DNA from: Candidatus Aerophobetes bacterium Ae_b3b
GTDB lineage: Bacteria; Aerophobota; Aerophobia; Aerophobales; AE-B3A
Reading direction: 5' to 3'
DNA: 19,487 nt
Assembly: GCA_005223085.1 (NCBI GenBank)
Contig: NJBP01000043.1
Span: forward strand, 1-19,487
Shown here piece by piece: positions 371-18,600 of the stretch. Position numbers and translations under genes: made by a program. Each line of letters opens with the position of its first letter. Positions within the stretch are counted from its first letter, which is position 1. The notes beneath the pieces were generated by a model, which ran no database searches, was not told the DNA's origin, and worked only from the letters and a program-made list of their open reading frames with translations.

Positions 371-1680
371 CCAGTTTAAGGAAAGAGTCACCTCTTCCCT
401 ACCTTAATCTTTCTGTGTCTTTGGCTCCCCATGACAGCTTCTCATACCAACTAGATTATGGAAGACAAAAGGAAAGATTTACCGGCTATCTCAGTGCAGG
501 GAGCGTTTTCACTCCGCATTGGGTGGAATACGAGCCAGAAGAGCTTTATTTAGGAAAACACGAAGAAACTATCGCCTCGGAGCTCATCTGGGGTTCTCTG
601 ACAGATAGAACGCTGGTACTTAATTTAGAGAGAGAGGTGAAAAAGATCGATCTTCCCAATGAGCAGGAAAGAAATAAGAACGAAATTGAAATAGGAGCAA
701 ACCGCAGGCAAGAGTGGAAAACGAGCATTTTTACCATTGACGGCTGGGCCAACAGGTCAGTGGTAAAGGATCCAGAAGTTGACCAGGAAGATATAGCTCT
801 GGGAACCGGATTGAAGCTGCGACTAAAGAAGATCCCTTTAGATATTGGAGTTAGTGTGGATCATAGTTCCTTCAGCGAGAAAACTCAGACTTACCTTTGG
901 CTAGAGGATGATGCTATTACTTTTAAACGAATAAAGGAGCTAACTCTCAGTTTAGGAGGAGGAATGAAGGCAATAACAGGATCAGGCTCTCAATTTTTGC
1001 CCTCTCTTAAGCTAACTTACCAGATAAATCCTAGGTTTCAGCTAGGCGTAGGCGGAAAAGGGCATTTTTACCTTGCTCGATTTTCGGATTTATATTTTCT
1101 CCAGGATTATGTAGAAATAAATGAGGATCTTGATCCAGTGAAGATCTGGGACTATGAAATTAAGCTGGAGTATAAACTCTCCTCTCTGGCAAACCTTTCC
1201 CTGGTGGGATTTTACAAAGAGGGCGAAGATACTATCTGGAATTGGAACGCTATCAGTTCCCTGGCCAGACCGGAAATTCGTGAGATGAATGTTTCGGGGG
1301 GACGTCTAAATTTTTTACTTCACTTCGGTGAGACATTTGAACAGGGGGTCTCTTACACCTTTCAAAAGGCAAAAAATGCCCAAGATGAGACTATGGTAAT
1401 TCCCCACTACCCCCAGAATGAGGGAGATCTTTGGCTCATAGGGAGAAGAAACGGCTGGGCAGTTGAGCTAGGAGCAAAATACATAGGCAAAAGATACTAC
1501 GAGGAAACAAGCGAGGAGAAGCTTGATAGCGGCTGGATAGAAAGATTCAAAATCTCCAGAGAGATAGGCAAAGCCATAGAGTTGTTTGCTCAGTTGGAAT
1601 TAAATGATTATGACCTCTGGAAGAATTATCCCCTGGACAGGGAAAAAATCTCCCTCGGACTTAAAGCCAAACTTTATTGA
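1..1680 (+). CDS. Outer-membrane beta-barrel protein, TonB-receptor-like, 5' end outside the window
   Basis: The reading frame is open from base 1, so the first ATG in this frame (position 55) is internal and the true start and any signal peptide lie upstream. The first ~125 residues are rich in Pro, Arg and Lys and hold an 81-residue tandem repeat; the unit contains MEYRGKKELAPPSIQIPRG twice. From about residue 135 the protein shows alternating polar/hydrophobic strands rich in Tyr, Trp and Gly (for example YQLDYGRQKERFTGYLSAGS and FQLGVGGKGHFYLARFSDLY), and it ends in an amphipathic strand with a terminal aromatic residue (GLKAKLY), the usual signature recognised by the barrel-assembly machinery. 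The second half resembles TonB-dependent receptor barrels (LSLVGFYKEGEDTIW). No plug domain is visible because the 5' end is missing, so substrate and TonB dependence are unknown. It converges on the DUF3108 gene with a 29-bp gap. Confidence 0.7.
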   Translation, partial: PSARYVPARYTRIEALPFMEYRGKKELAPPSIQIPRGKKVYYHPLSFPGLERKVIEGAPLAPLKPRKKISPVALVLPELVSPSARYVPARYTRIEALPFMEYRGKKELAPPSIQIPRGKKVYYPSLRKESPLPYLNLSVSLAPHDSFSYQLDYGRQKERFTGYLSAGSVFTPHWVEYEPEELYLGKHEETIASELIWGSLTDRTLVLNLEREVKKIDLPNEQERNKNEIEIGANRRQEWKTSIFTIDGWANRSVVKDPEVDQEDIALGTGLKLRLKKIPLDIGVSVDHSSFSEKTQTYLWLEDDAITFKRIKELTLSLGGGMKAITGSGSQFLPSLKLTYQINPRFQLGVGGKGHFYLARFSDLYFLQDYVEINEDLDPVKIWDYEIKLEYKLSSLANLSLVGFYKEGEDTIWNWNAISSLARPEIREMNVSGGRLNFLLHFGETFEQGVSYTFQKAKNAQDETMVIPHYPQNEGDLWLIGRRNGWAVELGAKYIGKRYYEETSEEKLDSGWIERFKISREIGKAIELFAQLELNDYDLWKNYPLDREKISLGLKAKLY

Positions 1681-4015: not shown

Positions 4016-5149
4016 ATGAGGGGATATGTTCTCGTAAAAGGAGAACTGAAGCTTGACAGAACTATAGAATTGGCTATGGTAAAAGACGCACTCATAAAGG
4101 AGCCGTCAATGAAAGCTGCCATTTTAAAGGCAATTGAGGATTTAGAAATTAAGAAAGTCCCCACTCCCCATCCTTCACCAGAGGAAATACTTATCAGGGT
4201 TAGAGCCTGCAGCATATGTGGAACCGATATAAAGGTTTACCATCATGGACACAAGCATATGAGATTTCCTAGGGTTACCGGGCACGAACTCGCAGGAGAA
4301 ATTGTGGAATTAGGCCGTAAAGTTAATGGCTACAAAATCGGAGAAAGGGTAGCCGTAGCTCCGGCTATTCCCTGTGGCAGATGTTTTTACTGTAGAAGAG
4401 GTATGCAGAGTATGTGCCTCAATCTTTCTGCCATAGGCTATCACTATGATGGAGGTTTTGCCGAATTTATGCTGATTCCCGAGGATGCTGTCCATAATGG
4501 ATGTGTGAATCCCATTCCATCAAACCTTTCCCTTGAAGAAGCAGCCCTAGCCGAACCTTTAGCCTGTGCTATAAATGGGCAGGAGCTCTCCAGGATCAGC
4601 CTGGGTGACACAGTAGTGGTGGTAGGAGGAGGTCCCCTGGGATGCATTCATGTGCAATTGGCCAGGGCAAAAGGAGCAGGCAAAATTATCCTTATAGAAC
4701 TTTCCCCGCAAAGAATTGAGTTCATTAAAAAGTTCACTCAACCCGATGTGATAATCAACCCTTCTCTGGAGGATAGCATAAAAGGGGTGTTAGAAGAAAC
4801 TGAGGGAAGAGGTGCTGATAAAATAATTGTTGCCTGTCCCAGTGGGAGAGCACAGGAAGATTCACTGCAAATGGTGTCTCCCCGTGGTATAGTCAACTTC
4901 TTTGGAGGGCTACCACTGGATGAGCCCTTTATAAAGTTTAATTCCAATCTTGTCCATTACCGGGAATTTTATGTAGTAGGAACCCACGGCTCGGCTCCTT
5001 ACCATAACCAGCTCGCTCTATCCCTGCTTTCTCAGGGGAAAGTAAAGCTCAAAGAACTTATCAGTCATCGCTTACCTCTGGAAAAACTGGAAGAAGGCCT
5101 CCATCTTGCCGAAACTCAGAAAGGAATGAAGATACTTATCACATCTTAA
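4016..5149 (+). CDS. Zinc-dependent medium-chain alcohol/polyol dehydrogenase
   Basis: 377 residues from the ATG at 4016. Catalytic zinc residues Cys68 (SICGTD), His90 and Glu91 (TGHE) are present; the structural zinc lobe has four cysteines, 120, 123, 126 and 134 (CGRCFYCRRGMQSMC). The NAD-binding fold has VVVVGGGPLGCIHVQLARAKGAG around residues 200-222. This is the sorbitol/threonine dehydrogenase branch, oxidising a secondary alcohol of a polyol or sugar. Two starts are plausible. ATG 4016 is preceded by GGGGGAGAG and sits 25 bp after the upstream gene. ATG 4109 is preceded by AAAGGAG with a 6-nt gap and gives the usual family N-terminus MKAAILKAIEDLEIKKV. The 31-residue extension is unusual for the family. 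Co-transcribed with the COG4091 gene; its 3' end overlaps the convergent aldolase gene by 11 bp. Confidence 0.88.
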   Translation: MRGYVLVKGELKLDRTIELAMVKDALIKEPSMKAAILKAIEDLEIKKVPTPHPSPEEILIRVRACSICGTDIKVYHHGHKHMRFPRVTGHELAGEIVELGRKVNGYKIGERVAVAPAIPCGRCFYCRRGMQSMCLNLSAIGYHYDGGFAEFMLIPEDAVHNGCVNPIPSNLSLEEAALAEPLACAINGQELSRISLGDTVVVVGGGPLGCIHVQLARAKGAGKIILIELSPQRIEFIKKFTQPDVIINPSLEDSIKGVLEETEGRGADKIIVACPSGRAQEDSLQMVSPRGIVNFFGGLPLDEPFIKFNSNLVHYREFYVVGTHGSAPYHNQLALSLLSQGKVKLKELISHRLPLEKLEEGLHLAETQKGMKILITS

Positions 5150-6035
5150 CCTTCCCCGCAGAACCATAAGCTTCTAATTTTGTCTTTATCGTTTCTTTAA
5201 TAGATGAACAGGCCTTTTTCAAAATATCCCTCTCACTAGTTGAATCTATTAACTCCTGAGGATTAATTCTGTCAAGGTCTTTCTGAGTCAAATTTTTACG
5301 CAGCTCTTCTAAAAAGACTTTCTTTAAAATAGTCCCCACGTTAAATTTATGCACTCCTTTATTGATAACCTTCTTGATCAGTTTGTCGGGAAAGCCTGTT
5401 CCTCCATGCATTACTAAAGGTACGTTCACTAATTTATCAATTTTTTCCAGCCGATGCCAATCTACAGAAAATTCCTTATGGATCAACATATGAACATTTC
5501 CCACAGAAATAGCTAAAGCATTTACCCCGGTTTGGTGGACGAAACAGGTAGCAGCCTCAGGATCGGTCAAAAAATCTCTATTTATCCTTTCCTTCTGGGA
5601 AGGGATCCTACCTACTTGTCCCTCTACATCTATCCCTAGCTTAGTTGCCTGCTTCACAATTTCCTTGGCAGATTCGATATTATCTTCTAAAGCAAGACCA
5701 CTTCCATCAAACATCACGCAATTAAAGCCTAGTCTCATTGCCCTTTTAATTAATTCTGGATCGGAAACTTCATTTAAAATAAAGGCAGTGGGAACTGTTG
5801 AATTTTTAACCAGCTCTTTACCTATGGCGGCGAAGCCGGTAAGTTTTACCTCATCCCAACCTGAATCCTGAACAAAAGTTCTCCCCCCAAATCCTATTAT
5901 TACGGGAGACCAAGCCTCCTCGGCTGCCCTCAGAGATGCCTCAAGAGAGCCATAATCCCAGCTCTCAAAGTAACCCACGGCGTAGCCTCTCTTCTCTGCC
6001 TCCTTCAAAATTTGGCTCATTGGCATGAGTGGCAA
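5139..6035 (-). CDS. Class II (ketose-bisphosphate) aldolase-like protein with altered metal-site residues
   Basis: 298 residues, normal length for GatY/FbaA-type class II aldolases. The TIM-barrel pattern is clear: MPLMPMSQILKEAEKRGYAV at the start, GFNCVMFDGSGLALEDNI in the middle, TGVNALAISVGNVH and VPLVMHGGTGFPD near the end. His182 and His210 match two of the zinc histidines. The third metal site is changed: where the family has HLDH, this protein has ILNEV, so the catalytic Asp and first zinc His become Asn88 and Glu89, and the family's VEAELG reads VEGQVG (Gln140). Start is TTG at 6035: it has AAGGAG six bases upstream and yields the family's typical MPL..M beginning, whereas the ATG at 6026 would lie 15 nt from that site. 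The start is 13 bp after the kinase stop, so the two are one unit. Aldol cleavage is expected from the family but not assured. Confidence 0.8.
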   Translation of the reverse strand: MPLMPMSQILKEAEKRGYAVGYFESWDYGSLEASLRAAEEAWSPVIIGFGGRTFVQDSGWDEVKLTGFAAIGKELVKNSTVPTAFILNEVSDPELIKRAMRLGFNCVMFDGSGLALEDNIESAKEIVKQATKLGIDVEGQVGRIPSQKERINRDFLTDPEAATCFVHQTGVNALAISVGNVHMLIHKEFSVDWHRLEKIDKLVNVPLVMHGGTGFPDKLIKKVINKGVHKFNVGTILKKVFLEELRKNLTQKDLDRINPQELIDSTSERDILKKACSSIKETIKTKLEAYGSAGKVKM

Positions 6036-6048
6036 ATTATTCTCCTTT

Positions 6049-7026
6049 TCAAAGAGAACATCGTTTTACTTCCAATTCAATCTCATTATTTTTTATAAAC
6101 TGCTCTGCCTCAGATCTAGTGAACACCCCAGTTGTAGTTCCCACCTCCCTCACGGCAGATGCCCCCATAGCGCTGGCCAGCTTCAACGTCTCCTCAAGTT
6201 CCCAGCCATTTATAACACCGAAGATAAAACCAGCGGAAAAGGCATCTCCTCCTCCAGAGGGATCTACCACTTCAACTTCATACGTAGAGGCTCGAGCCAT
6301 CTTATCTTTGGTTCTCACAAACGAACCTTCTTTTCCCATGGTGATAACTACTGTCATCTCGTAGTTATGCCTGAGCATCTCTTCAGCTTGTTCTCGGGGC
6401 CCAACCCGACCGGTGATTAACCTGGCTTCGTCGGAATTGGGAAGAAAAAAGTCGGTGAACTTAAGTGCCCTTTTGCACTTGTTTATCCACCTAACCTCTG
6501 TATGAGGAATCACCACATCTAGTACAGTAATTAAACCATGTAGTTTAGCAAATTTCAAAAGTTTAGTTAAAGAATCTTCCTCCAGTTCAGGAAGAACCCC
6601 ATATCCGCCTACATAGAGAACCTTTCCTTGACTAAGATAGTTAAAATCGATATCGTCGATATTAAAATTAGCATTGGCGCCTAGAGTATGGATAAATCTT
6701 CTATCTTCTGAATGAGTAAGGATAATCATGGTCTTAGAGGTTCCGAGTTTATGAGACACAGCAATTTTTGAGATATCCACTCCTTCTTTCCTTAGGTCCT
6801 CCTTAAGAAAATCGCCGAAATGGTCATGGCCCACTTTTCCCAGTACCCCAGTCCTTGATCCCAGTCTGGCTAAGCTCACAGCCGCGTTGTGAGCATGTCC
6901 ACCCCCGGAGAGGGAAATCTCATCGGTAGATATTAGCTCGCCAGGCTCAGGTACCTTATCAATAGGGCTGCAAAGAATATCCACTACCAGGATACCCAGA
7001 CACACCACCTCTATCTTCTCACTCAT
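6049..7026 (-). CDS. PfkB-family carbohydrate kinase
   Basis: 325 residues, usual size for the ribokinase/PfkB family of ATP-dependent sugar kinases. The N-terminal substrate lobe has GGGHAHNAAVSLARLGSRTG (residues 41-60; family pattern GG-x-x-N-x-A), followed by GKVGHDHFGDFL. The C-terminal PfkB signature is VVDPSGGGDAFSAGFIFG (residues 253-270), where Asp261 is the catalytic base; GGGD replaces the more common GAGD. ATG at 7026 has GGAGGA nine bases upstream. It precedes the aldolase in the same operon, which suggests the product (a sugar phosphate or bisphosphate) is the aldolase substrate. Fructokinase, 1-phosphofructokinase, tagatose-6-phosphate kinase or a deoxy-sugar-acid kinase cannot be told apart by reading. 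Confidence 0.87.
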   Translation of the reverse strand: MSEKIEVVCLGILVVDILCSPIDKVPEPGELISTDEISLSGGGHAHNAAVSLARLGSRTGVLGKVGHDHFGDFLKEDLRKEGVDISKIAVSHKLGTSKTMIILTHSEDRRFIHTLGANANFNIDDIDFNYLSQGKVLYVGGYGVLPELEEDSLTKLLKFAKLHGLITVLDVVIPHTEVRWINKCKRALKFTDFFLPNSDEARLITGRVGPREQAEEMLRHNYEMTVVITMGKEGSFVRTKDKMARASTYEVEVVDPSGGGDAFSAGFIFGVINGWELEETLKLASAMGASAVREVGTTTGVFTRSEAEQFIKNNEIELEVKRCSL

Positions 7027-7369: not shown

Positions 7370-8884
7370 ATGTCTTTCATTTTGGGAATAGATCTGGGGA
7401 CCTCCAGCGTGAAGGCTCTTTTAGTACGCGAAGGAGGAGAGATTATTGCCAGCTCATCCGAGGAATATCCCACTTATTCTCCTCATCCTACCTGGGCCGA
7501 ACAGGACCCAGAGGAATGGTGGGAATCTACTATTAGAGCGGTAAGAAAAGCCGTTCATCAATCCCATATAAAACCTTCCCAAATAAAAGCAGTGGGACTC
7601 TCGGGACAAACTCACGGGACAGTATTGGTAGGGAAAAATCTTCTTCCTTTGAGAAAGGCCATCATCTGGATGGATCAAAGAAGCATTGCTCAGACCCGAT
7701 GGCTTCAACAGAGAATAGGAAAAAGATTATCGCGAATAACCGGCCTTCCCATAGCCACAGGCTTTATGGCTCCTTCACTTCTCTGGATCAGGGAAAATGA
7801 ACCTGGCATCTGGAAAAAAACTTACCAATTTCTTCTTGCCAAGGATTATATAAGACTGAAACTAACGGGAAATTTAGCTAGTGATGTCACCGATGCCGGG
7901 GGAACACTTCTTTTGGATACCGGGAAGAGAAAGTGGTCGCCAGAGATACTCCAGAAACTAGAGATTCCTGCCAGCTTCGCTCCTCCTCTTTACGAATCCT
8001 GCCAGGTCACCGGGAAGATCACCAAAAACGCGGCCAAAGAGATCCCTCTCAAAGAAGGCACCTCCGTGAGTGCTGGAGGAGCAGATCAGATAATGGGAGC
8101 GGTAGGCAATGGTATAGTTGAACCCGGAAGGGTAGCCTGCAGTATTGGAACGGGAGGATTGGTGGTAACCCCCATGGATCATCCTCAAGTAGCTCCTGAT
8201 AAAGGACTACATACTATCCCCCATGCTATACCCGGAAAATGGATTCTCATGGGAGCGATTCTCTCTGGAGGATCCAGCTTGAGCTGGTTTTATAAGCAAG
8301 TGATTTTAGGAAGGGGAAAAACTCTTAAAAGTGAAGATTCTTATCAATCTCTATTCCGAGAAGTTTCACCTACCCCTGCTGCCTCGAAAGGTCTAATATT
8401 TCTTCCTTATCTTAAGGGTGAGCGGACCCCTTATCTTGATCCTCAAGCAAGGGGAGCATTTGTAGGCCTCAGCCTTCAACATGGCAGGAGAGATTTAACT
8501 CGAGCTATAATGGAAGGAGTTGTTTTTGCTTTGAGGCAATCGTTAGAGAAATTCAAAGAGTTAGGAATTGAAATATCCAATGTCACCACCTGGGGAGGAG
8601 GAGCAAAAAATAAACTCTGGCGGCAGATTCAGGCCGATATATTCAACCTACCCATCCTCATTTCTCCCACCCAGGAAGGATCTGCCTATGGTGCCGCCAT
8701 AACAGCGGCGGTAAGCATAGGAATCTATCCCACTATAAAAGAAGCTTGCCAAGAATGGATTAGAATAAAAGAGAAAATTCTACCCAACCCAAAAAATGTG
8801 GAAGTATATAACAAAGCCTATCTGATTTACCGGGGTCTATACTCTAAACTAAAAGATGACTTTCATGGTCTTTCTGAATTATAA
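7370..8884 (+). CDS. xylB: FGGY-family carbohydrate kinase, xylulokinase-like
   Basis: 504 residues, close to the usual 480-510 for xylulokinases. N-terminal phosphate-binding motif is GIDLGTSSVKALLV (residues 6-19). PHPTWAEQDPEEWW, GQTHG (79-83; GQMHG in typical xylulokinase), WMDQRS, KDYIRLKLTG and SDVTDAGGTLLLD follow the xylulokinase pattern closely; Asp239 in SAGGADQIMGAVG is the expected catalytic base. C-terminal ATPase-half motifs GLIFLPYLKGERTPYLDPQARGAF and TWGGGAKNKLWRQIQADIF are intact. It phosphorylates a ketose such as D-xylulose, or a related polyol or deoxyketose; the Met-to-Thr change in GQMHG touches the sugar pocket and keeps the substrate uncertain. It is monocistronic under its own promoter, divergent from the kinase-aldolase unit and convergent with the Gfo/Idh gene. 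Confidence 0.82.
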   Translation: MSFILGIDLGTSSVKALLVREGGEIIASSSEEYPTYSPHPTWAEQDPEEWWESTIRAVRKAVHQSHIKPSQIKAVGLSGQTHGTVLVGKNLLPLRKAIIWMDQRSIAQTRWLQQRIGKRLSRITGLPIATGFMAPSLLWIRENEPGIWKKTYQFLLAKDYIRLKLTGNLASDVTDAGGTLLLDTGKRKWSPEILQKLEIPASFAPPLYESCQVTGKITKNAAKEIPLKEGTSVSAGGADQIMGAVGNGIVEPGRVACSIGTGGLVVTPMDHPQVAPDKGLHTIPHAIPGKWILMGAILSGGSSLSWFYKQVILGRGKTLKSEDSYQSLFREVSPTPAASKGLIFLPYLKGERTPYLDPQARGAFVGLSLQHGRRDLTRAIMEGVVFALRQSLEKFKELGIEISNVTTWGGGAKNKLWRQIQADIFNLPILISPTQEGSAYGAAITAAVSIGIYPTIKEACQEWIRIKEKILPNPKNVEVYNKAYLIYRGLYSKLKDDFHGLSEL

Positions 8885-8930: not shown

Positions 8931-10109
8931 TCATTTTTTCTTCGCTTCTACATCAATCCATCTTTCCTCTTTGACTGACTTTTCCACTGCCTCCAGAACT
9001 CTCTGACATTCAACTCCATCGGCAAAATTGGGTGTGGGCATCCTATCTTCATGCAAGGCTTTCATAAAATCATAGACCAGGTGAACAAAGGTATCTCCCC
9101 ACCCGATGATGTGTCCTGGTGGCCACCAGGCTTCTATATAAGGATGAGTAGCTTCGCTAACCTGAATTCTTCTAAACCCCTGCATCCCATCCGGGTCCTC
9201 ACAGGAATAGAACCAGAGCTCATTCATATTCTCAAGCTCAAATAATAGGCTCCCCTTACTCCCATTTATCTCAAGTCTCAAGCCATTCCGCCGGCCATTG
9301 GCAAATCTGGTTGCTTCAAAACAGCCCAAAGCTCCGCTTTTAAATCTGGCTAGAAAAAGAGTAGCATCGTCCACCGTGACTTCTCCCAGTTTCCCTCTTC
9401 TTGATTCTGCAGTAAGGCCGGTGGTAAGCTCCTCGCTCACTTCAAGCTCTGGCCTCTTCTTAATAAATGTCTCCTGCATCCCGACGACTTTAGCAAAATC
9501 TCCCGCCAGATACCGGGCTAAATCTATTATATGGGAATTTAAATCACCATGAGCCCCTGCTCCCGCTTCTTCTTTTTTAAATCGCCAGACCAGAGGAAAC
9601 TCCGGATCAGTGACCCAATCCTGCAGGTACTGAGCCCGGAAATGATAGATTTTCCCCAGGTGTCCTTCTCCAATCAGTTTTTTAGCCAGACCGACAGCGG
9701 GAACTTTTCTATAATTAAAGCAAACCATATGTTTTACCCCGGCTTGCCTCGCTGCCTCCAGCATCTCCTCAGCCTCAGCCAAACTTACTGCTAGCGGCTT
9801 CTCGCAGAGGATATGTTTTCCAGCTTTAGCCGCAGCTACGGCAATTTCCCTATGAGTTGAATTGGGAGTATTGATATCAACCAGACCAATATCTTGGCGC
9901 TGGACAAGTTTTTCCCAGGATGTTTCGTAAGCTTCCCAGTCAAACTTTCGGGCAGCTTCGGAAACAGCAGTCTCTGTTCGGCCACAGATCACCTTCATTA
10001 CCGGCACGGTCTCGGTTTCAAAGAACATAGCCACATCTCGGTAAGCATGTGAATGAGCTTTGCCCATAAACTTATAACCCACCATCCCCACATTGATCTT
10101 TTTTGCCAT
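8931..10109 (-). CDS. Gfo/Idh/MocA-family sugar or inositol dehydrogenase
   Basis: 392 residues. Rossmann fold at the N-terminus (INVGMVGYKFMGKAHSHAYR, dinucleotide loop GYKFMG at residues 11-16), then NTPNSTHREIAVAAAKAGKH and the family hallmark CEKPLAV with Lys104. Downstream, GDLNSHIIDLARYLAGD supplies the Asp and His usually used in catalysis. The C-terminal domain is the beta-sheet half with ATRFANGRRNGLRLEINGSKGSL. Members oxidise a hydroxyl of a sugar, sugar acid or cyclitol with NAD(P). ATG 10109 has a strong GGAGGAG four bases upstream. It has its own promoter, so it need not follow the MttB operon, although no terminator is visible between them. The substrate cannot be read from sequence. 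Confidence 0.88.
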   Translation of the reverse strand: MAKKINVGMVGYKFMGKAHSHAYRDVAMFFETETVPVMKVICGRTETAVSEAARKFDWEAYETSWEKLVQRQDIGLVDINTPNSTHREIAVAAAKAGKHILCEKPLAVSLAEAEEMLEAARQAGVKHMVCFNYRKVPAVGLAKKLIGEGHLGKIYHFRAQYLQDWVTDPEFPLVWRFKKEEAGAGAHGDLNSHIIDLARYLAGDFAKVVGMQETFIKKRPELEVSEELTTGLTAESRRGKLGEVTVDDATLFLARFKSGALGCFEATRFANGRRNGLRLEINGSKGSLLFELENMNELWFYSCEDPDGMQGFRRIQVSEATHPYIEAWWPPGHIIGWGDTFVHLVYDFMKALHEDRMPTPNFADGVECQRVLEAVEKSVKEERWIDVEAKKK

Positions 10110-10229: not shown

Positions 10230-11669
10230 TTACCCGGGCAGGCTTTTTTCCTCAAACTCTCTTATAATCTCCCTGAGTCTTGAGCGCACTTTTTCGGTGA
10301 GATTTTTTGGTTGGTGATGGGTAAGTATTTTCTTTGAGATCTCACGGGCTTTTTCTACAACATCTTTCCCGCCATCTTCGATCCATTTCTCATAGACAGA
10401 ACGATTGGATAGCTTCGGCTGCCAATGTTCGCTGCTTCTTAGGTATTTCAAGGTATGTGGCTCCTCTAAGAAGTTCCCCTTGGGTCCTACTCTCTTGATC
10501 ACCTCAAGGGCAATTGTCTGGGGTGAGATCTCAATCCCCTCGACAAGGCGATAAACTATCCCTGCCATCTCATTGTCGAGTACCAGTTGTTCAAAACTTA
10601 CTGTTAAGCCAGTAGCAATCATTCCTGCATTTACCACCAAATTGACTCCTGAAGTAAAAGCACTGTGGAGGGTAAGGAATTTCTCCCAGGCATTTTGCTC
10701 ATCCAGACAATGTGAATCAGAATCAGGACCAATGGTATGAGAGGGGATATGATAGAATCTTGCTAGCTGCGCCCCGGCTATGCGCATGAGAGCTGTCTCA
10801 GGACCTCCGATGACCACATTTGCCTGCCTCATATCAAAAGTAGTCCAGGCGCTTCCATAGACAACAGGGGTTCCTTTTCTCACTAACTGGCTGATTACAA
10901 TGCCGGAAAGCAGCTCCGCATTATGCACTGTCAATACCCCGGCTAAGGTTATGGGTGCCGTAACCCCAGCATAAGGCTGAGGAAGGAAAACAAGGGGAAC
11001 TCCGGCTCTCGCTGCTTCAACCACGGCATCAGCAGCACCCCCTTCCCAGCTTAGAGGACTGGTAGAAGAAAGCTGACAGGTCAAGATAGGAGTTTCTGAG
11101 AAACTTCCATCTCCGACAACTGCTCGGGCCATCCCAATTATAGCCCGGGTAACCTCACAGCTCTCAGGAGAGAAATAGAGATGTTTTTCAGTGTTGTTAA
11201 AGACTGCCTCAACTGCATGAAGTAAAGATGCTTTTGGCACAACATCCTGTGGCATAGCCTGAGCGCTCACCACATGAATATTCTCAAGAGCATCGGCAAG
11301 TCTGGCAAAACGGGCCACATCCTTTTTGGTGGCGGCTCGACGGGTGAGCGTGTTTGAATCAAGTACATATATGGCATTATGACCACTGGCCAAGTGGCTT
11401 TCATTATCTCCCAGAGTCAAAGCCGGATTTTTATTCCTGTCATAGAGGACAATTTCCGAAGGAAGACAATCGAGAGTAATTTCAATCAAATCTTTAGGGA
11501 TTCTCACCCGTTTTCTCTCAAGATCAACTTTGGCCCCAGCCTCTTTTAATAACTCGACAACTTTCTTGCTGTGGATCGCCATTCCTGTCTCTGAGAGAAG
11601 CTTTAAAGAAGCCTGGTGAATCCTTGACAAATCATCTTCAGAAAGAATCTTATACCTATTGAGTCTCAC
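10230..11669 (-). CDS. MttB-like (COG5598) trimethylamine methyltransferase family protein, non-pyrrolysine type
   Basis: About 479 residues from the chosen GTG. It matches the MttB superfamily end to end: KILSEDDLSRIHQASLKLL, VPLVFLPQPYAGVTAPITLAGV, ANVVIGGPETALMRIAGAQLARFY and VNAGMIATGLTVSFEQLVLDNEMAG. Archaeal MttB has an in-frame amber (pyrrolysine) codon near residue 334; here the equivalent stretch reads SDSHCLDEQNAWEK with no stop, so this is a non-pyrrolysine homologue. Characterised relatives such as MtgB demethylate quaternary amines (glycine betaine and similar), passing the methyl group to a corrinoid protein. Start: the frame opens at TTG 11684, but GTG 11669 is preceded by AAGGAG with a 6-nt gap and gives MRLNRYKILSEDDL, so I prefer it. 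It is the last gene of the Pot-like transporter operon (25 bp after the permease stop), which implies its substrate is the imported one. Confidence 0.88.
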   Translation of the reverse strand: MRLNRYKILSEDDLSRIHQASLKLLSETGMAIHSKKVVELLKEAGAKVDLERKRVRIPKDLIEITLDCLPSEIVLYDRNKNPALTLGDNESHLASGHNAIYVLDSNTLTRRAATKKDVARFARLADALENIHVVSAQAMPQDVVPKASLLHAVEAVFNNTEKHLYFSPESCEVTRAIIGMARAVVGDGSFSETPILTCQLSSTSPLSWEGGAADAVVEAARAGVPLVFLPQPYAGVTAPITLAGVLTVHNAELLSGIVISQLVRKGTPVVYGSAWTTFDMRQANVVIGGPETALMRIAGAQLARFYHIPSHTIGPDSDSHCLDEQNAWEKFLTLHSAFTSGVNLVVNAGMIATGLTVSFEQLVLDNEMAGIVYRLVEGIEISPQTIALEVIKRVGPKGNFLEEPHTLKYLRSSEHWQPKLSNRSVYEKWIEDGGKDVVEKAREISKKILTHHQPKNLTEKVRSRLREIIREFEEKSLPG

Positions 11670-11694
11670 TCTTTGCTCCTTCAATCATTCGACT

Positions 11695-12486
11695 TTATAG
11701 TTCCTCTCGGACGGCCGTAAATTTAGCCATTAAAACTATTAAAACCATAGCAAAAGTTAGCACCACGGTCGAAATAGCGAACACCTGCGGGGACAGACCA
11801 AAACGCATCATGCCGTAGATAAACACGGGAAGAGTTGTCCAGGTACCAGTCAAAAAATAGGTAATGATAATCTCATCAAAAGACATAGTAAATGCGAGGA
11901 GTGCCCCCCCGATTATGGCAGTTCGTATCATAGGAAGCGTCACATACCAAAAGATTTTGACCGGAGTCGCTCCAAGATCTTTTGCCGCATACTCAAATGA
12001 TCTTGGCAGTCTTTGGAGTCTGCTGGCTACTTGAAACATTATCACTGGTGTAGTAAAGCATACGTGTCCCATTAAAATCGAAAACATGGACAATTCAAAA
12101 CCCAGGTTCATAAACAGTATCAGTAAAGCTATACCCAAAATAATTCCTGGTAGAATCAGAGGTAACTGGGAAAGGCTCCTGAAAAGCTGCTTTCCTGGAA
12201 AATTCGCTCTTACTAAAAAAAAGGCGCCACTCGTCCCAACAACGACGGCAATGCTCACTGCCGTAAGACTCACCTGTAATGAATGTATAAGTGCCGCGAT
12301 TAGAGCTTCATCGTTAAACAATTTAATATACCACCTGGTAGTAAAACCAGAAAACCCAACAATAGATTTTGTAGGACTAAAAGAAAAAACTATTACCACC
12401 GCTAAGGGTAAGTAAAGAAAAGAATAAGCTAAGACAGCATAAATCCCCAGGGGCGATAATTTAAATTTTCTTCTCTCTTTTTTCAT
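11695..12486 (-). CDS. ABC transporter permease, spermidine/putrescine (PotC) type
   Basis: 263 residues with six hydrophobic segments, beginning LSPLGIYAVLAYSFLYLPLAVVIVFSF. The coupling (EAA) loop FEYAAKDLGATPVKIFWYVTLP, which contacts the ATPase, is clear around residues 165-185. Length and the opening LPLAVVIVFSFSPTKS...GFTTRWYIKLF are typical of the second permease (PotC/YdcV-like) of polyamine-type importers. Located in the inner membrane. It follows the PotB-like permease after 36 bp and precedes the MttB homologue. The ribosome binding site (AGAAAG) is weak, so translational coupling within the operon is likely. Substrate is inferred only from the neighbours. Confidence 0.9.
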   Translation of the reverse strand: MKKERRKFKLSPLGIYAVLAYSFLYLPLAVVIVFSFSPTKSIVGFSGFTTRWYIKLFNDEALIAALIHSLQVSLTAVSIAVVVGTSGAFFLVRANFPGKQLFRSLSQLPLILPGIILGIALLILFMNLGFELSMFSILMGHVCFTTPVIMFQVASRLQRLPRSFEYAAKDLGATPVKIFWYVTLPMIRTAIIGGALLAFTMSFDEIIITYFLTGTWTTLPVFIYGMMRFGLSPQVFAISTVVLTFAMVLIVLMAKFTAVREEL

Positions 12487-12522
12487 CTTTCTGCGCTTGT
12501 ATTTCTCTATATTTCTTTTAAG

Positions 12523-13425
12523 TTATTCGTATAACATCCCCTCTCGTGAGCCAAATTTCTGGGTTATGGCCAAAATCACTGCCGCAATAGAAAACAAAAT
12601 AAAGCCTAAAGCAGCACCTAATGGCCAATTGAAGGCAAAGCCAAATTGCGACCAGATAATATTTCCGAGCATCATTCCTCCAGTTCCACCCAATTGCATA
12701 GGGATAATGTAATCACCGAGAGAAATTATAAATGCCAGCATAAATCCTGTAAGTAGACCGGGAATACAAAGGGGTAATATTACGTTTATAAAAGTGTGAA
12801 ACTCATTGGCTCCGAGATCCCTGGCGGCATCAATTAAATTTACAGGAATCTTTTCCAGAGCAGTGTATAAGGGAATGAATACGAAGGGAATAGAAATATA
12901 AGTTAAAGTGATGGCTACGGCGAACTGATTATATAATAAAAATGATAGAGGCTCTTTTATTAAGCCAAGTGCCATTAAAGTCGAATTAATCAAACCCTTG
13001 TTGCCCAGTATTGCCCTCCAGGCAATTATCCTCACCAGGTAACTTATCCATAAAGGGGCTATTATCAACATAAAAAGTAAATGTCTTCCCTTTCTTATCT
13101 TTCTCGAAATATAGTAAGCTAAGGGGTAGCTGGCGAAAATGGCCAGAGTCGATGCAATCAAAGCTATCCTAAAGCTTCTTAAAAGTATCTTGACATACGA
13201 TGGCTTCTTCAAAATCTCCAAATAGTTGGAAAGAGTTAAAATATTTGAGATATCATATCCTACCTTCTGTCTGAAACTCATAATTAGCATCAAAATTACT
13301 GGAGTAATTATTATTATGAGAAGCCAGAAAATAATAGGAATTCCCATTATGTAAGAACGGGGTTTATCGAACACTCCTCTCTTTTTCCCCCTCTTATTAT
13401 TTGGTAATTCTTTCATCGATTTCAC
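12523..13425 (-). CDS. ABC transporter permease, spermidine/putrescine (PotB) type
   Basis: About 300 residues, inner-membrane permease with a basic N-terminal tail (NNKRGKKRG), first membrane span IPIIFWLLIIIITPVILMLI, further spans, and the EAA loop DAARDLGANEFHTFINVILPL. It pairs with the PotC-like permease to form the heterodimeric channel. Three in-frame starts lie close together: TTG 13431, GTG 13425 and ATG 13416. The AAAGGG site ends 8 nt before the GTG, so I placed the start there; the choice changes only 2-5 residues. It starts about 12 bp after the ATPase stop, within the same operon. Confidence 0.9.
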   Translation of the reverse strand: MKSMKELPNNKRGKKRGVFDKPRSYIMGIPIIFWLLIIIITPVILMLIMSFRQKVGYDISNILTLSNYLEILKKPSYVKILLRSFRIALIASTLAIFASYPLAYYISRKIRKGRHLLFMLIIAPLWISYLVRIIAWRAILGNKGLINSTLMALGLIKEPLSFLLYNQFAVAITLTYISIPFVFIPLYTALEKIPVNLIDAARDLGANEFHTFINVILPLCIPGLLTGFMLAFIISLGDYIIPMQLGGTGGMMLGNIIWSQFGFAFNWPLGAALGFILFSIAAVILAITQKFGSREGMLYE

Positions 13426-13437
13426 CGACAAAACCCT

Positions 13438-14556
13438 TTATTCATATTGAATCATATCCTTCTTCATACTAATGGGAAAAACCTGAACATCTTCCGGGTT
13501 CCACCCTATTTTTACCCTATTACCCACTTTTTGAGACTTATCCCAAACTTTGTAATCGACAAGCGAACGCACCTCGCACTTGTCGAATTTGGCTGTAACT
13601 TCAAAATTATTCCCTTTGAATACAATTCTGCTTATCTCTGCTTCAATGACATTTTTTAGGGACTGTAGGGGGTTTACATGAACTTTCTCGGGACGGATAC
13701 TTACCAGTACACCATCATTCAACGAAATCTTTTGATCGTTATTCTTGCAGAGGATGTTTTTGTTTGAGACCGACACTTCTACAGTGTCTGAAGACGGTAT
13801 TGACGCAACTAGTCCTTCCAAAAAATTCATCTCTCCTATGAATGAAGCTACAAAAGCGGTCGCGGGATTATTATAAATCTCATCCGGAGTACCGATTTGG
13901 TGGATTAGCCCTTGAGACATCACGGCTATTCGGTCGCTCATGGTAATCGCTTCTGTCTGGTCATGGGTAACATATATAAAGGTAATATTTAGGTTTCTCT
14001 GAATATCTTTCAAAACTTTTTGCATGGATACTCTAAGCTTAAAGTCAAGAGCACCTAACGGTTCATCCAATAAGAGAACTCTTGGCTCATTAACCAGTGC
14101 CCGAGCCGAGGCCACCCTCTGTCTTTGTCCACCAGAAACCTGACTGGAATATCTTTTCTCGAAACCTTCCAAATTGACCAGCTTTAGCACTTTTTTAATC
14201 CTTGGATCAGCTTCTTTTTTGGAAATTTTCCGCATTTTTAAGGGAAAGTAGACATTATCGTAAACGCTCATATGGGGAAATATAGCATAATCTTGAAAAA
14301 CAGTATTCACATTGCGGCGATGAGCGGGAACATTAGTAACATCCCCTCCTTCTAAGAAAACCTTGCCTTCGTCCGGTTCTTCAAGCCCAGCGATTATTCT
14401 CAGAGTAGTAGTTTTTCCACAGCCGGAAGGTCCTAATAGTGAAAAAAATTCACCCGCTTTTATTTTAATATTGCAATTATTAACAGCTATAGTATCTTTA
14501 TATATCTTGGTAACTTCTACTAATTCGACCTGCCATTTAGATTCTTTATCTTTCAT
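13438..14556 (-). CDS. potA: ABC transporter ATP-binding protein, spermidine/putrescine (PotA) type
   Basis: 372 residues. Walker A GPSGCGKTT (residues 42-50), Q-loop within NTVFQDYAIFPHMSVYDNV, ABC signature VSGGQRQRVASARAL, Walker B VLLLDEPLGALD and the switch histidine in YVTHDQTEA are all intact. The C-terminal ~120 residues (from about 245) form the TOBE-type regulatory domain of PotA/UgpC/MalK-class ATPases, with VSIRPEKVHV typical of PotA. It energises import through the two downstream permeases. The binding-protein gene lies 103 bp upstream, separated by a strong hairpin (14605-14640). The ribosome binding site is weak. Polyamine-type family assignment is firm; the actual solute is not known. 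Confidence 0.9.
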   Translation of the reverse strand: MKDKESKWQVELVEVTKIYKDTIAVNNCNIKIKAGEFFSLLGPSGCGKTTTLRIIAGLEEPDEGKVFLEGGDVTNVPAHRRNVNTVFQDYAIFPHMSVYDNVYFPLKMRKISKKEADPRIKKVLKLVNLEGFEKRYSSQVSGGQRQRVASARALVNEPRVLLLDEPLGALDFKLRVSMQKVLKDIQRNLNITFIYVTHDQTEAITMSDRIAVMSQGLIHQIGTPDEIYNNPATAFVASFIGEMNFLEGLVASIPSSDTVEVSVSNKNILCKNNDQKISLNDGVLVSIRPEKVHVNPLQSLKNVIEAEISRIVFKGNNFEVTAKFDKCEVRSLVDYKVWDKSQKVGNRVKIGWNPEDVQVFPISMKKDMIQYE

Positions 14557-14604
14557 TTGATCCGTCTTTCCCTAGATTTATTTGGATGTAACCGAATATC
14601 AATA

Positions 14605-14640
14605 TCCTCTGGTCCTGACAGATACATCAGGACCAGAGGA
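14605..14640 (-). promoter_or_regulatory. Intercistronic RNA hairpin between binding-protein and ATPase genes
   Basis: Perfect 14-bp inverted repeat, TCCTCTGGTCCTGA (14605-14618) and TCAGGACCAGAGGA (14627-14640), with an 8-nt loop. It sits 19 nt after the binding-protein stop codon and 48 nt before the ATPase ATG. In the transcribed direction it is followed by TATTGATATTCGG rather than a U-run, so it is more likely a partial terminator or 3'-end stabiliser than a full intrinsic terminator. Confidence 0.8.
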
Positions 14641-14659
14641 AAACTAACTCACCCTCTAC

Positions 14660-15787
14660 CTAAAATCCTAATTTTGCCTTAATTTCGAGCCAGGTATTCA
14701 CTCTCCTCTCAGGATCCTCTTCAGTAACCATTATATAAAGAGGAACAGGAAATTCATCGATTGACATAGTGTACCACCAGGTTCTCTCCTTAACTGCATC
14801 GGTATAACCACCACCTCCAGCAGGATTAATAATACCAAAGCCAACTTTCTCAGCCAGTAAGGTTTGTCCTGCATCACCTATCATGTAATCGATGTATTTG
14901 AGAGCCAGATCGAGAGATTTCCCTTTAGTCGGTTTGGTAATTACCCATCCGTCGATCCAGCAGATGGTGCCTTCAGTTGGTAGGTAGTGAGTGAACTTAT
15001 CTCCCACTCCCTCCTCCACCAATGCATTGGCCTCAATAGCGTTATTGCCGGTTATGGAAATATAGGCATCCTCTCCGGTAAGGATCGCTTTTTCTGAATC
15101 AAATCCGAGGGTAAACTGTCTGCAGTTTTTGGCCCATAGGCTAAGTTCAGTAATCATAGCCTCATAGTCAGCCTCACTCAGGTTAAATGGATGGGTAATA
15201 CCGGCAGCAATCGCTGACATGCTGGTGACATTGGTAGACTCATCAAACATGGTCACCATATCCTTGAACTGAGGCGCCTTCATCACCCTGTAAGAAAGAA
15301 CTTGACGGCCTCCACCTATATCGGTCAGATATGGCTTAAGCCTGTCACCCACGACAGCCGTATTGACGATAAAGTCTTGATCTCCCCAGCAGATGGGAAC
15401 ATGGAACTTCTTACCGGGTTCAACCTCGGCATAGGGATGGTCACGGAAATATTTTCCTATTTTGGGGTAATTTTTTAATCTAGACACATCTATGGGTTGA
15501 ATCAGACCGGCATCGTAATACATCTGAACCCTACCTGAGTCATTAGATATTATATTGTACAGGCCTGGTGCAGCTTTGGTCTTGGTGAAATGCTCCTCCA
15601 CCGTCCCAGCATAGGTTATTTTGACCTCGCAATCATACTTTTCTTCGAAAGGCTTTACCCAGCTATCGTCCGCATATCCAAAAAAGCAAAGAATACTCAG
15701 CGTACCGCCTTCCTTCGCTGCCATGGCTGGGATGGAAAATAACACAACCAGACATAGGGACAACAACAAAACTGACAATTTTTTCAT
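14660..15787 (-). CDS. Periplasmic solute-binding protein, spermidine/putrescine (PotD) type
   Basis: 375 residues. A Sec signal peptide MKKLSVLLLSLCLVVLFSIP ends in AMA at residues 21-23, with cleavage expected before Ala24; there is no lipobox cysteine, which fits a soluble periplasmic protein. The mature protein opens GGTLSILCFFGYADDSWVKPFEEKY and includes YNIISNDSGRVQMYYDAGLI and ICWIDGWVITKPTKGKSLDLALKYIDYMI, the pattern of PotD-like extracellular binding proteins (SBP_bac type). A strong site AAAGGAGAGG precedes the ATG. First gene of the transporter block, 203 bp downstream of the DegT gene. With MttB at the operon end, a quaternary or methylated amine is a more likely ligand than a polyamine (inference). 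Confidence 0.88.
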   Translation of the reverse strand: MKKLSVLLLSLCLVVLFSIPAMAAKEGGTLSILCFFGYADDSWVKPFEEKYDCEVKITYAGTVEEHFTKTKAAPGLYNIISNDSGRVQMYYDAGLIQPIDVSRLKNYPKIGKYFRDHPYAEVEPGKKFHVPICWGDQDFIVNTAVVGDRLKPYLTDIGGGRQVLSYRVMKAPQFKDMVTMFDESTNVTSMSAIAAGITHPFNLSEADYEAMITELSLWAKNCRQFTLGFDSEKAILTGEDAYISITGNNAIEANALVEEGVGDKFTHYLPTEGTICWIDGWVITKPTKGKSLDLALKYIDYMIGDAGQTLLAEKVGFGIINPAGGGGYTDAVKERTWWYTMSIDEFPVPLYIMVTEEDPERRVNTWLEIKAKLGF

Positions 15788-15990: not shown

Positions 15991-17319
15991 CTAAGCTATT
16001 TCTGCCCTACCAGTTATAGGCTTTTTCTCGACAGATGTCGTCTTAACGGTAACAACCTCATCGATATTGTCAAAGACCCTGTGAAATGCTTCTATATAGT
16101 GTTTCATAAGCTCCAGGGGCTGAGGAAAAATGGGGTAAGGTTCAGAGCAAATCACCAGAGAGTCAGCTAACAGCTTCAAGGTTTCTGGATAATCGTTTGG
16201 ATCATAGCTTATCTTTTCTGCATATTTACAGCTCCAGGGACAACCCTTGCCATAGCCTTCCTTAAGCCTAAAGAGAGTTTGACCAAGAATAGGGACAGTT
16301 TGCCAGAGGACAGTATCTACCCCCTCTGCCTGAAGAGTCTTCATTACCAAATCTCTGAAATTATCCGGCTCCATATCTAAATCCAACTCGTCTGGACTTA
16401 GTCTGATTCTGTATTTATGATAGATATGGGTCCTGTCGGGAGGGACAAAGGGAGGAGTGACCCCCTTAATCTCTGCTAGATGCCCGGATAAATACTCAGC
16501 GTTTCTCTTCCCATTGGCATTGTATTCATCTAACCTTTTAAGTTGACTTCTAGCAAAAGCAGCCGGCATCTCCTGAGTCCTATAATTCCATCCCATGGTG
16601 TAAGCATTGTATTTTCTTCCTTCCTCGGGCTTAAGGAACTCTCCAAACATCCTCACCATGTTGGCTTTACCCCTGTATTCTTCATTATTAGTAACAAAAA
16701 GGCCACCTTCTCCTCCCGGCATATTCTTGGTAGAGTTTAAGCTAAAGGCCGCCATATCACTGAAATTACCAGTCTTTTTACCATGATACAGTGTTCCATG
16801 AGACTGAGCAGCATCCTCTATCACAACGAGATGATGCTTTTTGGCAATCTCATTTATCTCGTCCATATCTGCCGGCAGGCCATGAATATGAACAGGCATA
16901 ATAGCCTTTGTCCTGGAGTTAATCTTTTCTTCTATTCTTTTTGGATCAATATTGAAGGTCTTAGGATCGATATCCACAAAGATCGGTATGGCGTTATGAT
17001 GCAGGACCGCCACCGCTGAAGCTAAAAATGAAAAGGCTGAGGTAATAACCTCATCTCCAGGCCCAAGACCTGCTGCGGCTACTGCCATATGAAGAGCTGC
17101 CGTTCCACTATTTACAGCTATACAGTATTTTGTCCCAACATATCTGGCAAAGTCTTCCTGAAGGCCCACCACCTCCGGGGCATAGGGACCCCAGAGGATA
17201 CCCCTATTCAAAACTCCCATCACGGCGTTTTTATCCTCCTCAGTTATTACTGGCCAGCCTACCTTTAATTCCTCAGGTACTGTCCTTTTCCCTCCGGCAA
17301 TGGCTAAATCTCCCTTCAT
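15991..17319 (-). CDS. DegT/DnrJ/EryC1/StrS-family PLP aminotransferase
   Basis: 442 residues from the ATG at 17319. Motifs (numbered from the longer TTG form): NSGTAALHM (72-80), PGDEVITSAFSFLASAVAVL (89-108), VVIEDAAQSHG (167-177) holding the Asp that pairs with the pyridoxal nitrogen, and FSLNSTKNMPGGEGG with the Schiff-base Lys200. C-terminal RTQEMPAAFARSQLKRLDEY is typical. The opening LAIAGGKRTVPEELKVGWPVITEEDK and length above 430 recall the scyllo-inosose/keto-sugar aminotransferase branch, but that subassignment is uncertain. The frame opens at TTG 17325; the AGGAGG site lies 8 nt from ATG 17319, which I chose. It is 21 bp after the ROK stop, so ROK and DegT form one operon, suggesting an amino-sugar or aminocyclitol link. 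Confidence 0.87.
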   Translation of the reverse strand: MKGDLAIAGGKRTVPEELKVGWPVITEEDKNAVMGVLNRGILWGPYAPEVVGLQEDFARYVGTKYCIAVNSGTAALHMAVAAAGLGPGDEVITSAFSFLASAVAVLHHNAIPIFVDIDPKTFNIDPKRIEEKINSRTKAIMPVHIHGLPADMDEINEIAKKHHLVVIEDAAQSHGTLYHGKKTGNFSDMAAFSLNSTKNMPGGEGGLFVTNNEEYRGKANMVRMFGEFLKPEEGRKYNAYTMGWNYRTQEMPAAFARSQLKRLDEYNANGKRNAEYLSGHLAEIKGVTPPFVPPDRTHIYHKYRIRLSPDELDLDMEPDNFRDLVMKTLQAEGVDTVLWQTVPILGQTLFRLKEGYGKGCPWSCKYAEKISYDPNDYPETLKLLADSLVICSEPYPIFPQPLELMKHYIEAFHRVFDNIDEVVTVKTTSVEKKPITGRAEIA

Positions 17320-17340
17320 CACCAATACCTCCTCCCTAGT

Positions 17341-18600
17341 TCAGAATGGTATACTCTTTCTACCTACGTAACTTACCCCGGCAGTAAAGATATTTTTGAG
17401 AACAAGAATTGCTGCTCCCAGAACTCCAGCATCGTCACCCAGGATAGAAATTTTTACATCTACTTTCTCAGAGGCCACTTGTAAAGCTCGTGCTTTTACG
17501 ACCCGTTTTACTGGATCCAGCAGGAGCCTCCCTGCTTTGGATACTCCTGCCCCGATAATAACTAAGTCAGGATTAAAAAGATTGATCGCGTTGGCAACAC
17601 CGATACCTAAATATTCGCCTGTCTTCTCCATGATGTTGAAGGCGAGCTTGTCACCTCTTTTGGCGGCTGCCACAACGATCTCCGAGGTAATTTTATTGAG
17701 ATCCCCTTCTACTAATTCCTCAATAAGAGACACTACTCCCTGCTCCAGAGCTTCTCTTGTCCGTCTAGCAATGGCAGGGCCGGATACCAGCGTTTCCAGA
17801 CAACCAAAATTCCCACAGTTGCAGCGGGGACCGTTCTCATCTACTGTCATATGGCCTAATTCTCCCGCTGTCCCTCCACTTCCTCGATATAGCTCACCAT
17901 GAATGAAAACCCCGGAGCCGACGCCTATTCCCACATTGACGAAAATGAAATTCTCTACATTCTTAGCCAGTCCACACCAAGACTCAGCCAGAGTCATGGC
18001 TCTGGCACTATCATCTATGACTGCCTCGATTCCCAATTCCTGTCCTATTATTTTTTTTAGAGGGATATTTTTCCACCCCTCAACATTTGGCCAAAAAAGA
18101 CATACCCCCTCGCGATGATCAACTATCCCGGAAAGTCCTATACCGATTCCTTTAATTTTATCTGTCTTGACTTTTGATTTTTCAATGACCTCAAGAATAG
18201 TATTCATCGTCCTCCCAAGAGTAGCTTTCTTACCTTCACTAGCATTTGTCGCCTTCACTATTTTGGTAACTATCTTTGCCTCCAAGTCTACCACAGCTGC
18301 TCTGAGCTTAGCTGCGCCTATGTCAACTCCAATAGCGAAAAGGGCATCTGGCACCAGTCTCAACAAAATAGGAGGACGCCCGCCTTTTGAGGCACCAAAT
18401 TCATCCTCCTTTAAAAAACCGGCCCTTATTAAATCTCGAACCAAGGGGGTCACCCTCGGCCCACTTAAATTAGTAAATTTGGCAATATCAGCTCTTCCTA
18501 TTGGACCAAACCTTCTAACTGTGTCCAATATAAGAGCGTAATTATCATTACTACCTAGCTTGTTCCCACCGATGTTAGCATTAATAGTCTTTTCGTCCAT
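17341..18600 (-). CDS. ROK-family transcriptional repressor (NagC/XylR type)
   Basis: 419 residues, typical of ROK regulators, longer than ROK kinases. An N-terminal winged helix-turn-helix (about residues 20-80: NYALILDTVRRFGPIGRADI, then LVRDLIRAGFLKEDEFGASKGGRPP) precedes the ROK sugar-binding half. The zinc motif is complete: His250 with Cys260, Cys262 and Cys267 (RCNCGNFGCLE), and AGELGH is conserved. The ATP-binding loop reads VDIGAAKLRAAV, lacking the usual Thr, and the kinase NDAN motif reads DDSA, consistent with a sensor rather than an active kinase. Members bind a sugar or sugar phosphate and then release DNA. It heads the ROK-DegT operon and has a strong promoter flanked by an inverted repeat, which fits autoregulation. 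Confidence 0.9.
   Translation of the reverse strand: MDEKTINANIGGNKLGSNDNYALILDTVRRFGPIGRADIAKFTNLSGPRVTPLVRDLIRAGFLKEDEFGASKGGRPPILLRLVPDALFAIGVDIGAAKLRAAVVDLEAKIVTKIVKATNASEGKKATLGRTMNTILEVIEKSKVKTDKIKGIGIGLSGIVDHREGVCLFWPNVEGWKNIPLKKIIGQELGIEAVIDDSARAMTLAESWCGLAKNVENFIFVNVGIGVGSGVFIHGELYRGSGGTAGELGHMTVDENGPRCNCGNFGCLETLVSGPAIARRTREALEQGVVSLIEELVEGDLNKITSEIVVAAAKRGDKLAFNIMEKTGEYLGIGVANAINLFNPDLVIIGAGVSKAGRLLLDPVKRVVKARALQVASEKVDVKISILGDDAGVLGAAILVLKNIFTAGVSYVGRKSIPF

Follow-up and report, generated by a model that had tools for sequence, protein, structure and literature searches.

Introduction

Methyltransferases of the MttB superfamily are known with pyrrolysine, as in the trimethylamine methyltransferase of Methanosarcina, and without it, as in MtgB of Desulfitobacterium hafniense (structures 2qne and 9yce) and in MtpB, MtcB, MtyB and MthB of Eubacterium limosum. 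All characterised non-pyrrolysine members act on quaternary amines, and their partners are often encoded elsewhere (PMC8604678, PMC12155760); in E. limosum, MttB, the corrinoid protein and the second methyltransferase are normally scattered over the genome (PMC8604678). For MtgB, docking predicted that glycine betaine is contacted by Y94, N199, R309 and H345 (PMC6855144).

Here we analyse a stretch of 19,487 nucleotides (the window), which is contig NJBP01000043.1 of Candidatus Aerophobetes bacterium Ae_b3b (assembly GCA_005223085.1; contig 35 of a 2.04-Mb, 86-contig assembly that is 88.6% complete). It carries a Pot-type importer operon that ends in a non-pyrrolysine MttB homologue. As in the MtgB and E. 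limosum systems, a corrinoid protein, a RACo activator and a corrinoid:tetrahydrofolate (THF) methyltransferase are encoded in the genome apart from MttB; unlike in those systems, MttB is linked here to genes for a DegT aminotransferase and a Gfo/Idh dehydrogenase, and the importer is of the Pot type instead of the OpuD or EamA types. Pairs of DegT and Gfo/Idh enzymes normally make amino sugars or aminocyclitols, examples being NtdA/NtdC and the scyllo-inosose aminotransferases. The locus shares with such modules a sugar-dehydrogenase-like Gfo/Idh paired with a DegT aminotransferase, but adds an importer and a corrinoid methyltransferase, and because the pair is joined to these two it is probably catabolic. 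We tentatively read the operon, at close to an even chance, as catabolic for an N-methylated, positively charged solute, most likely one with a sugar- or cyclitol-like skeleton.

Results

The operon and its MttB protein

The initial annotation had described a Pot operon ending in MttB at positions 10230-15787. This description was borne out by five intact collinear open reading frames (ORFs) for PotD, PotA, PotB, PotC and MttB, all on the minus strand of the window, and profile searches agreed with the naming. The limits had been drawn too narrowly, and ROK and DegT genes upstream and a Gfo/Idh gene downstream had been overlooked; the same-strand run reads ROK, DegT, PotDABC, MttB, Gfo/Idh (18600 to 8931). 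Successive gaps from PotD to MttB are 103, 6, 36 and 10 bp, those from ROK to DegT, DegT to PotD and MttB to Gfo/Idh being 15, 203 and 120 bp, respectively.

MttB gave a full-length match to the PF06253/COG5598 family (profile positions 27-493 of 500). Its gene has a TTG start, a TAA stop and no in-frame TAG; the motif SDSHCLD occupies residues 322-328 and places Cys326 (TGT) at the pyrrolysine position. The score against the TIGR02369 equivalog was 474 bits, under the cut-off of 525. In these traits it differs from the pyrrolysine MttB of Methanosarcina, and judged from its sequence it is not a pyrrolysine trimethylamine methyltransferase, in agreement with the initial annotation. The TIGR02369 score was considered as a sign of trimethylamine use and dropped, since MtgB itself reaches 400 bits. 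The predicted structure (pLDDT 93.3) is very similar to those of MttB and MtgB (TM scores of 0.93 and 0.92), and its top structural matches all belong to the MttB family. The annotation had also taken the residues at the pyrrolysine position to suggest a specific substrate. We rejected Cys326 as a substrate signature: this column is mostly Ala across the clade described below, and Cys, Thr, Ile, Ser or Ala in the nearest relatives.

A tree was built from 72 MttB proteins, with the four E. limosum enzymes left out and with relatives fetched by a genome scan for exact matches to six MttB peptides. It placed the window MttB in a 41-member clade with 100/100 support, outside which lie MtgB, pyrrolysine MttB and the other MttB type encoded by the same genome. 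Within this clade it groups with a Spirochaetota protein (L076_7983) and two proteins of a same-order genome, G009 (support 98/86). The motifs DEQNAWEK and WTTFDMRQ were set aside as clade evidence, because the fetching scan had selected on exact matches to these peptides. At the four predicted glycine betaine contacts of MtgB, the window protein has H102, S206, H316 and N352, and in the 42 aligned clade members these columns are H in 41 of 41, S in 41 of 41, H in 41 of 42 and N in 40 of 42. This set is rare in other MttBs, and as its positions lie outside the six search peptides, it was not favoured by the way the relatives were fetched. The window protein shares superfamily and fold with MtgB, but falls in a separate clade, is only 32% identical to it and has all four contacts replaced. 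We consider it to represent a distinct, apparently uncharacterised MttB subfamily with a gene setting of its own.

The MttB clade is coupled to DegT genes

In 12 of 20 genomes, an MttB of this clade has a DegT gene no more than about 8 kb away, versus 1.0 expected from the DegT density (319 DegT genes in 99 Mb; P = 1.4e-11). The 17 DegT genes so located are all on the MttB strand. MttB and DegT overlap by 4 bp at three loci (L044, L047 and L059), as do MttB and Gfo/Idh at two others (L050 and L057). Near other MttB types of the window's phylum, DegT was found at none of 13 loci (p = 0.005, though these are from different genomes). In a DegT tree, the MttB-linked proteins formed one clade (100/100) with no unlinked DegT inside, drawn from Planctomycetota, Lentisphaerota, Hydrogenedentota, Kiritimatiellota, Verrucomicrobiota, Armatimonadota, Spirochaetota and Bacillota.

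Many of the neighbours of the MttB relatives are sugar enzymes. Recurrent ones include hydroxypyruvate-isomerase-like TIM barrels, URO-D proteins and an SSF symporter, and fucose/arabinose-isomerase-like proteins were also present. Counts of Gfo/Idh, TIM-barrel and URO-D genes were set aside as statistics, because these families are frequent in such genomes.

The same gene set is present in Spirochaetota

The annotation had grouped the Pot importer with MttB, and this grouping recurs outside the phylum, where orthologous MttB and PotD genes are adjacent in two Spirochaetota metagenome-assembled genomes. In one of them (G042, locus L169), a single strand carries DegT, MttB (50% identity), PotD (60%), PotA, PotB, PotC, a cupin gene and Gfo/Idh, a gene set that matches that of the window, PotB, PotC and Gfo/Idh included. 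The other (G096) carries DegT, MttB (47%), PotD (60%) and PotA (68%) up to the contig end. A third Spirochaetota genome, G035, has a cluster of two DegTs, Gfo/Idh, MttB (50%), a corrinoid protein 54% identical to one of those of the window's genome (C10, see below), an MttB of the type found on contig 10 of that genome, and PotABC. Its PotD is encoded at another place beside N-filled gaps, together with the beginning of a PotC that matches the start of the cluster's PotC exactly, and the two loci may belong together. Of 296 Spirochaetota genomes, only three have a PotD orthologue, and each of these also has this MttB. MttB and PotABCD of the window are orthologous to the Spirochaetota module, at identities of 47-50% for MttB, 56-62% for PotD, 60-68% for PotA, 63-66% for PotB and 60-69% for PotC.

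Two further loci, one in G035 and one in the same-order genome G009, are worth recording. A very large cluster in G035 (L158 and L159; G035:C1:3494000-3526000) holds several MttBs of different clades, two importers, a creatinase-like M24 protein, a class-III aminotransferase, isochorismatase and URO-D proteins. In G009, MttB is accompanied by a sugar-type (SBP_bac_1) importer and followed by two class-III aminotransferases; a second, internally deleted MttB copy (L112:12786-13736, in G009:C83) lies 3' of the intact one and before these aminotransferases.

The importer

PotDABC has the gene set of the PotABCD spermidine/putrescine importer, its PotA passes the subfamily model, and its PotD has the PotD fold and retains the W-x-D motif (ICWID / IFWMD). 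The PotD structure 4eqb was the top match both by sequence and by fold. It differs from that importer in its link to MttB, in its binding-site residues and in the scores of PotD (45 bits, 582 being needed), PotC (205 bits, cut-off 326) and PotB (195 bits, cut-off 348), which are all under the equivalog level. The window PotD is only about 20% identical to polyamine-binding proteins and has Asn at the position of PotD Glu171, a spermidine contact. On this basis we call the system a Pot-type importer and do not assign it to polyamine transport.

Corrinoid partners are encoded elsewhere in the genome

The annotation had noted that the window contains no corrinoid protein or corrinoid-to-folate methyltransferase and had concluded that this machinery must be encoded elsewhere unless the chemistry differs. 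Both the absence from the window and the location elsewhere held. On the window's contig, profile searches matched none of the corrinoid, RACo, pterin-binding and URO-D families, and a search of the genome, protein family by protein family, located the missing components. A genome lacking corrinoid methyl-transfer genes, which the annotation had named as a refutation, is thereby rejected. Contigs 67 and 10 each encode a small corrinoid protein of the MttC/MtgC kind (C67 and C10). C67 has 211 residues and scored 204.6 bits with TIGR02370 (cut-off 215) and 227 bits with the MtgC model (cut-off 370); C10 has 218 residues and scored 181 and 189 bits, respectively. Both are homologous to MttC/MtgC though below the named cut-offs. 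The genome further encodes three RACo activators and two methyl-THF:corrinoid methyltransferases that pass NF005719 (cut-off 259), Pter_C15 (318 bits, contig 15) and Pter_C25 (293 bits, contig 25). An AcsE-like protein on contig 69 also passes NF005719, and the gene set there reads as a carbon monoxide dehydrogenase/acetyl-CoA synthase (CODH/ACS) with corrinoid iron-sulphur protein subunits. Cobalamin-salvage-like genes were read on contig 25.

Other relatives of corrinoid methyltransferases were seen in this genome. It has 21 URO-D family matches over the cut-off in 2 Mb, which is unusually many; URO-D proteins are relatives of corrinoid methyltransferases, and the matches lie on contigs 10, 11, 15, 28, 33, 36, 40, 41, 56, 57, 62, 65 and 85. 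In the second MttB of the genome (L002, contig 10, 1480-2901, minus strand), an 88-bp stretch near the end is a 98.9% copy of the gene's own middle, in another frame and with three stops, which points either to misassembly or to a disrupted gene; relatives carry this MttB type in tandem pairs. Locus L018 (contig 10:343-14799) brings together MttB, a corrinoid protein, URO-D, an FGGY kinase, a sugar-type ATP-binding cassette (ABC) importer, two xylose-isomerase-like TIM barrels, a RuBisCO-like protein, two transketolase/E1-type proteins and a histone-deacetylase-like hydrolase, and is another MttB in a carbohydrate setting. At the start of locus L020 (contig 33:1-2562) lies the C-terminal part of a third MttB, followed by an epimerase-like gene and a URO-D protein that is 51% identical to the URO-D after the G009 MttB.

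Features of the operon and its surroundings

Coordinates and family assignments are listed in Table 1. The ROK gene is likely the operon's first gene. A promoter-like site, TTGACA-16-TATTAT, is located 5' of it (18684-18657), although such sites are no commoner than in shuffles. Nearest solved structures of DegT are 8gyh (333 bits), 8y96 and the glutamine--scyllo-inositol transaminase 7b0d, and the protein contains an NSTKN lysine motif. For Gfo/Idh they are 4h3v and 6a3f, the latter being LgdA. A strong hairpin in the gap after the binding-protein gene is common in importer operons, and the one between potD and potA (fold of 14560-14660: -35.7 kcal/mol, z -3.67) is a probable attenuator or stabiliser. 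Beyond Gfo/Idh, the PfkB gene overlaps the Gfo/Idh gene by 4 bp in the same-genus genome G003, and a 45% homologue of the window aldolase comes after PotC-PotD and an isomerase in G035. At the far end of the window (55-1680), a 541-residue ORF has one 24-residue segment (MEYRGKKELAPPSIQIPRGKKVYY) present twice near its start, a possible local duplication.

Table 1. Features of the MttB operon and its surroundings (positions in the window).
Feature	Position	Strand	Basis
ROK-family transcriptional regulator (NagC/Mlc-like)	17341..18600	-	PF00480, 241 bits; NagC/Mlc models best
DegT/DnrJ/EryC1 pyridoxal phosphate-dependent sugar aminotransferase	15991..17325	-	PF01041, 317 bits
PotD-like solute-binding protein	14660..15787	-	SBP_bac_8; nearest solved PotD/PotF
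Hairpin between potD and potA	14605..14640	-	16-pair perfect stem (scan)
PotA-like ABC ATPase	13438..14556	-	TIGR01187, 383 bits (cut-off 356 passed)
PotB-like permease	12523..13431	-	PF00528; best NCBIfam match PotB
PotC-like permease	11695..12486	-	PF00528; best NCBIfam match PotC
Non-pyrrolysine MttB superfamily methyltransferase	10230..11684	-	PF06253, 359 bits (cut-off 25)
Gfo/Idh/MocA dehydrogenase, levoglucosan-dehydrogenase-like	8931..10109	-	PF01408 and C-terminal domains; NF052479, 427 bits (cut-off 650)
PfkB-type sugar kinase, possible downstream step	6049..7026	-	Family read from sequence, no profile scan
Class II aldolase, possible downstream step	5139..6035	-	PF01116, 224 bits

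Discussion

The operon probably imports a positively charged small molecule from which MttB strips a methyl group in a B12-dependent reaction. Instead of an ordinary betaine, this nutrient may be a methylated compound that resembles an amino sugar. From gene content and order, clade membership, genomic partners and the conserved coupling we infer the direction, the substrate and the enzymatic steps as follows. PotDABC would import an N-methylated cationic sugar-like amine, and MttB would hand the amine's methyl group on to a C10- or C67-type corrinoid protein, which a RACo activator would keep reduced. An MtqA-like protein (contig 15 or 25) would then transfer the methyl group to THF, from where it would enter the Wood-Ljungdahl pathway (contig 69). 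What is left of the amine would be handled by DegT, through transamination between amine and ketone, and by Gfo/Idh, through oxidation or reduction at a ring carbon; PfkB and the aldolase would perhaps act after them, and ROK would sense a sugar-like ligand.

Several observations weigh against this reading. The window DegT falls outside the clade of MttB-linked DegTs, so that the tree rejects it as their orthologue, and the window Gfo/Idh is only 28% identical to a Spirochaetota counterpart (L076_Gfo); both proteins are analogues and not orthologues of those in the relatives. That enzymes of the same kinds were drawn here from other branches argues for a shared chemistry, but not for descent of the complete set from one ancestor. 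Genes of the Gfo/Idh, TIM-barrel and URO-D families abound in these genomes, and finding them is by itself weak evidence. The 203-bp gap between DegT and PotD and the 120-bp gap between MttB and Gfo/Idh allow separate transcription. In G003, Gfo/Idh and PfkB are kept at about 91% identity, but of MttB only the last 88 residues remain, next to two TIM-barrel genes and directly 5' of Gfo/Idh and PfkB (L111, G003:C28:1-4189), which indicates that the cassette is dispensable; the plus-strand xylulokinase of the window (7370-8884) is missing between Gfo/Idh and PfkB there. Finally, known non-pyrrolysine MttBs remove a single methyl group from quaternary amines; the resulting tertiary amine is no substrate for an aminotransferase, so that more demethylation steps would be needed. 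Either further demethylation, DegT action at another position or DegT action in the other direction would be a way round this problem.

A methylated sugar-like amine has to be set against ordinary quaternary-amine methylotrophy, in which Pot imports betaine, choline or a related amine for demethylation by MttB, DegT and Gfo/Idh being unrelated neighbours. The substrates and scattered partners of the characterised enzymes would fit it, as would the genome's corrinoid proteins, which score best against MtgC/MtbC-type models, and the lack of orthology of DegT and Gfo/Idh just described. We nevertheless consider it unlikely, given a DegT coupling of the MttB clade far above chance and with 4-bp overlaps, the order DegT-MttB-Pot-Gfo/Idh on one strand in a second phylum, and the replacement of all predicted betaine contacts by clade-specific residues; as these contacts are predictions, the replacement lowers rather than excludes betaine use. 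The betaine-type substrate named in the initial annotation is thereby weakened, as DegT and Gfo/Idh in the run point to a sugar-like amine instead, and its interpretation as a whole is partly supported.

That Pot imports a polyamine-like amine, N-methylated or quaternary, much as PotD takes up spermidine, and that MttB demethylates it, is improbable in our view: the nearest solved fold and sequence are indeed those of PotD, with W-x-D kept, and the class-III aminotransferases after the G009 MttB belong to a class that includes polyamine transaminases, but low identity to polyamine-binding proteins and the Asn at the Glu171 position speak against it, as do the sugar-type importer of G009 and the DegT and Gfo/Idh families, which mostly act on sugars and cyclitols. 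We regard as very improbable a reverse, anabolic use in which Gfo/Idh and then DegT make the amine, MttB methylates the amino sugar and Pot recycles the product. The normal biosynthetic role of DegT and Gfo/Idh pairs, with which the family neighbours agree, is met by Pot systems with a binding protein being importers, by known MttB enzymes giving methyl groups to the corrinoid and not taking them from it, by the uptake genes of the relatives and by the CODH/ACS-linked methyl acceptors of the genome. Mere chance adjacency of MttB and the Pot operon would accommodate G003, which has lost most of MttB and has no Pot genes at that place; it is nearly refuted by the adjacency of MttB and PotD in two genomes of another phylum at 47-62% identity and by the presence of this MttB in every Spirochaetota genome with this PotD.

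Extending the methylated-sugar-amine reading to the clade, we suggest, with rather less than even confidence, that a widespread separate MttB subfamily demethylates amino sugars or aminocyclitols that carry N-methyl groups, and that it works in series with an aminotransferase and a dehydrogenase for sugars. It would span the window's candidate phylum, Spirochaetota, Planctomycetota, Lentisphaerota, Hydrogenedentota, Kiritimatiellota, Armatimonadota, Bacillota and others. Such a substrate class and pathway have not been described for corrinoid methyltransferases; we found no paper joining MttB with DegT, with inositol plus aminotransferase or with amino sugars, and a wider search yielded unrelated papers only, which is weak evidence, most subscription journals lying outside the search.

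One MttB clade is thus marked out by tree, pocket residues and gene neighbourhood, and we predict, in a form open to test, that it acts on methylated sugar-like amines and not on betaines. Should this hold, anaerobic one-carbon metabolism in sediments and digesters would gain a class of methyl donors, and uncultured phyla would have a route for feeding methyl groups into the Wood-Ljungdahl pathway.

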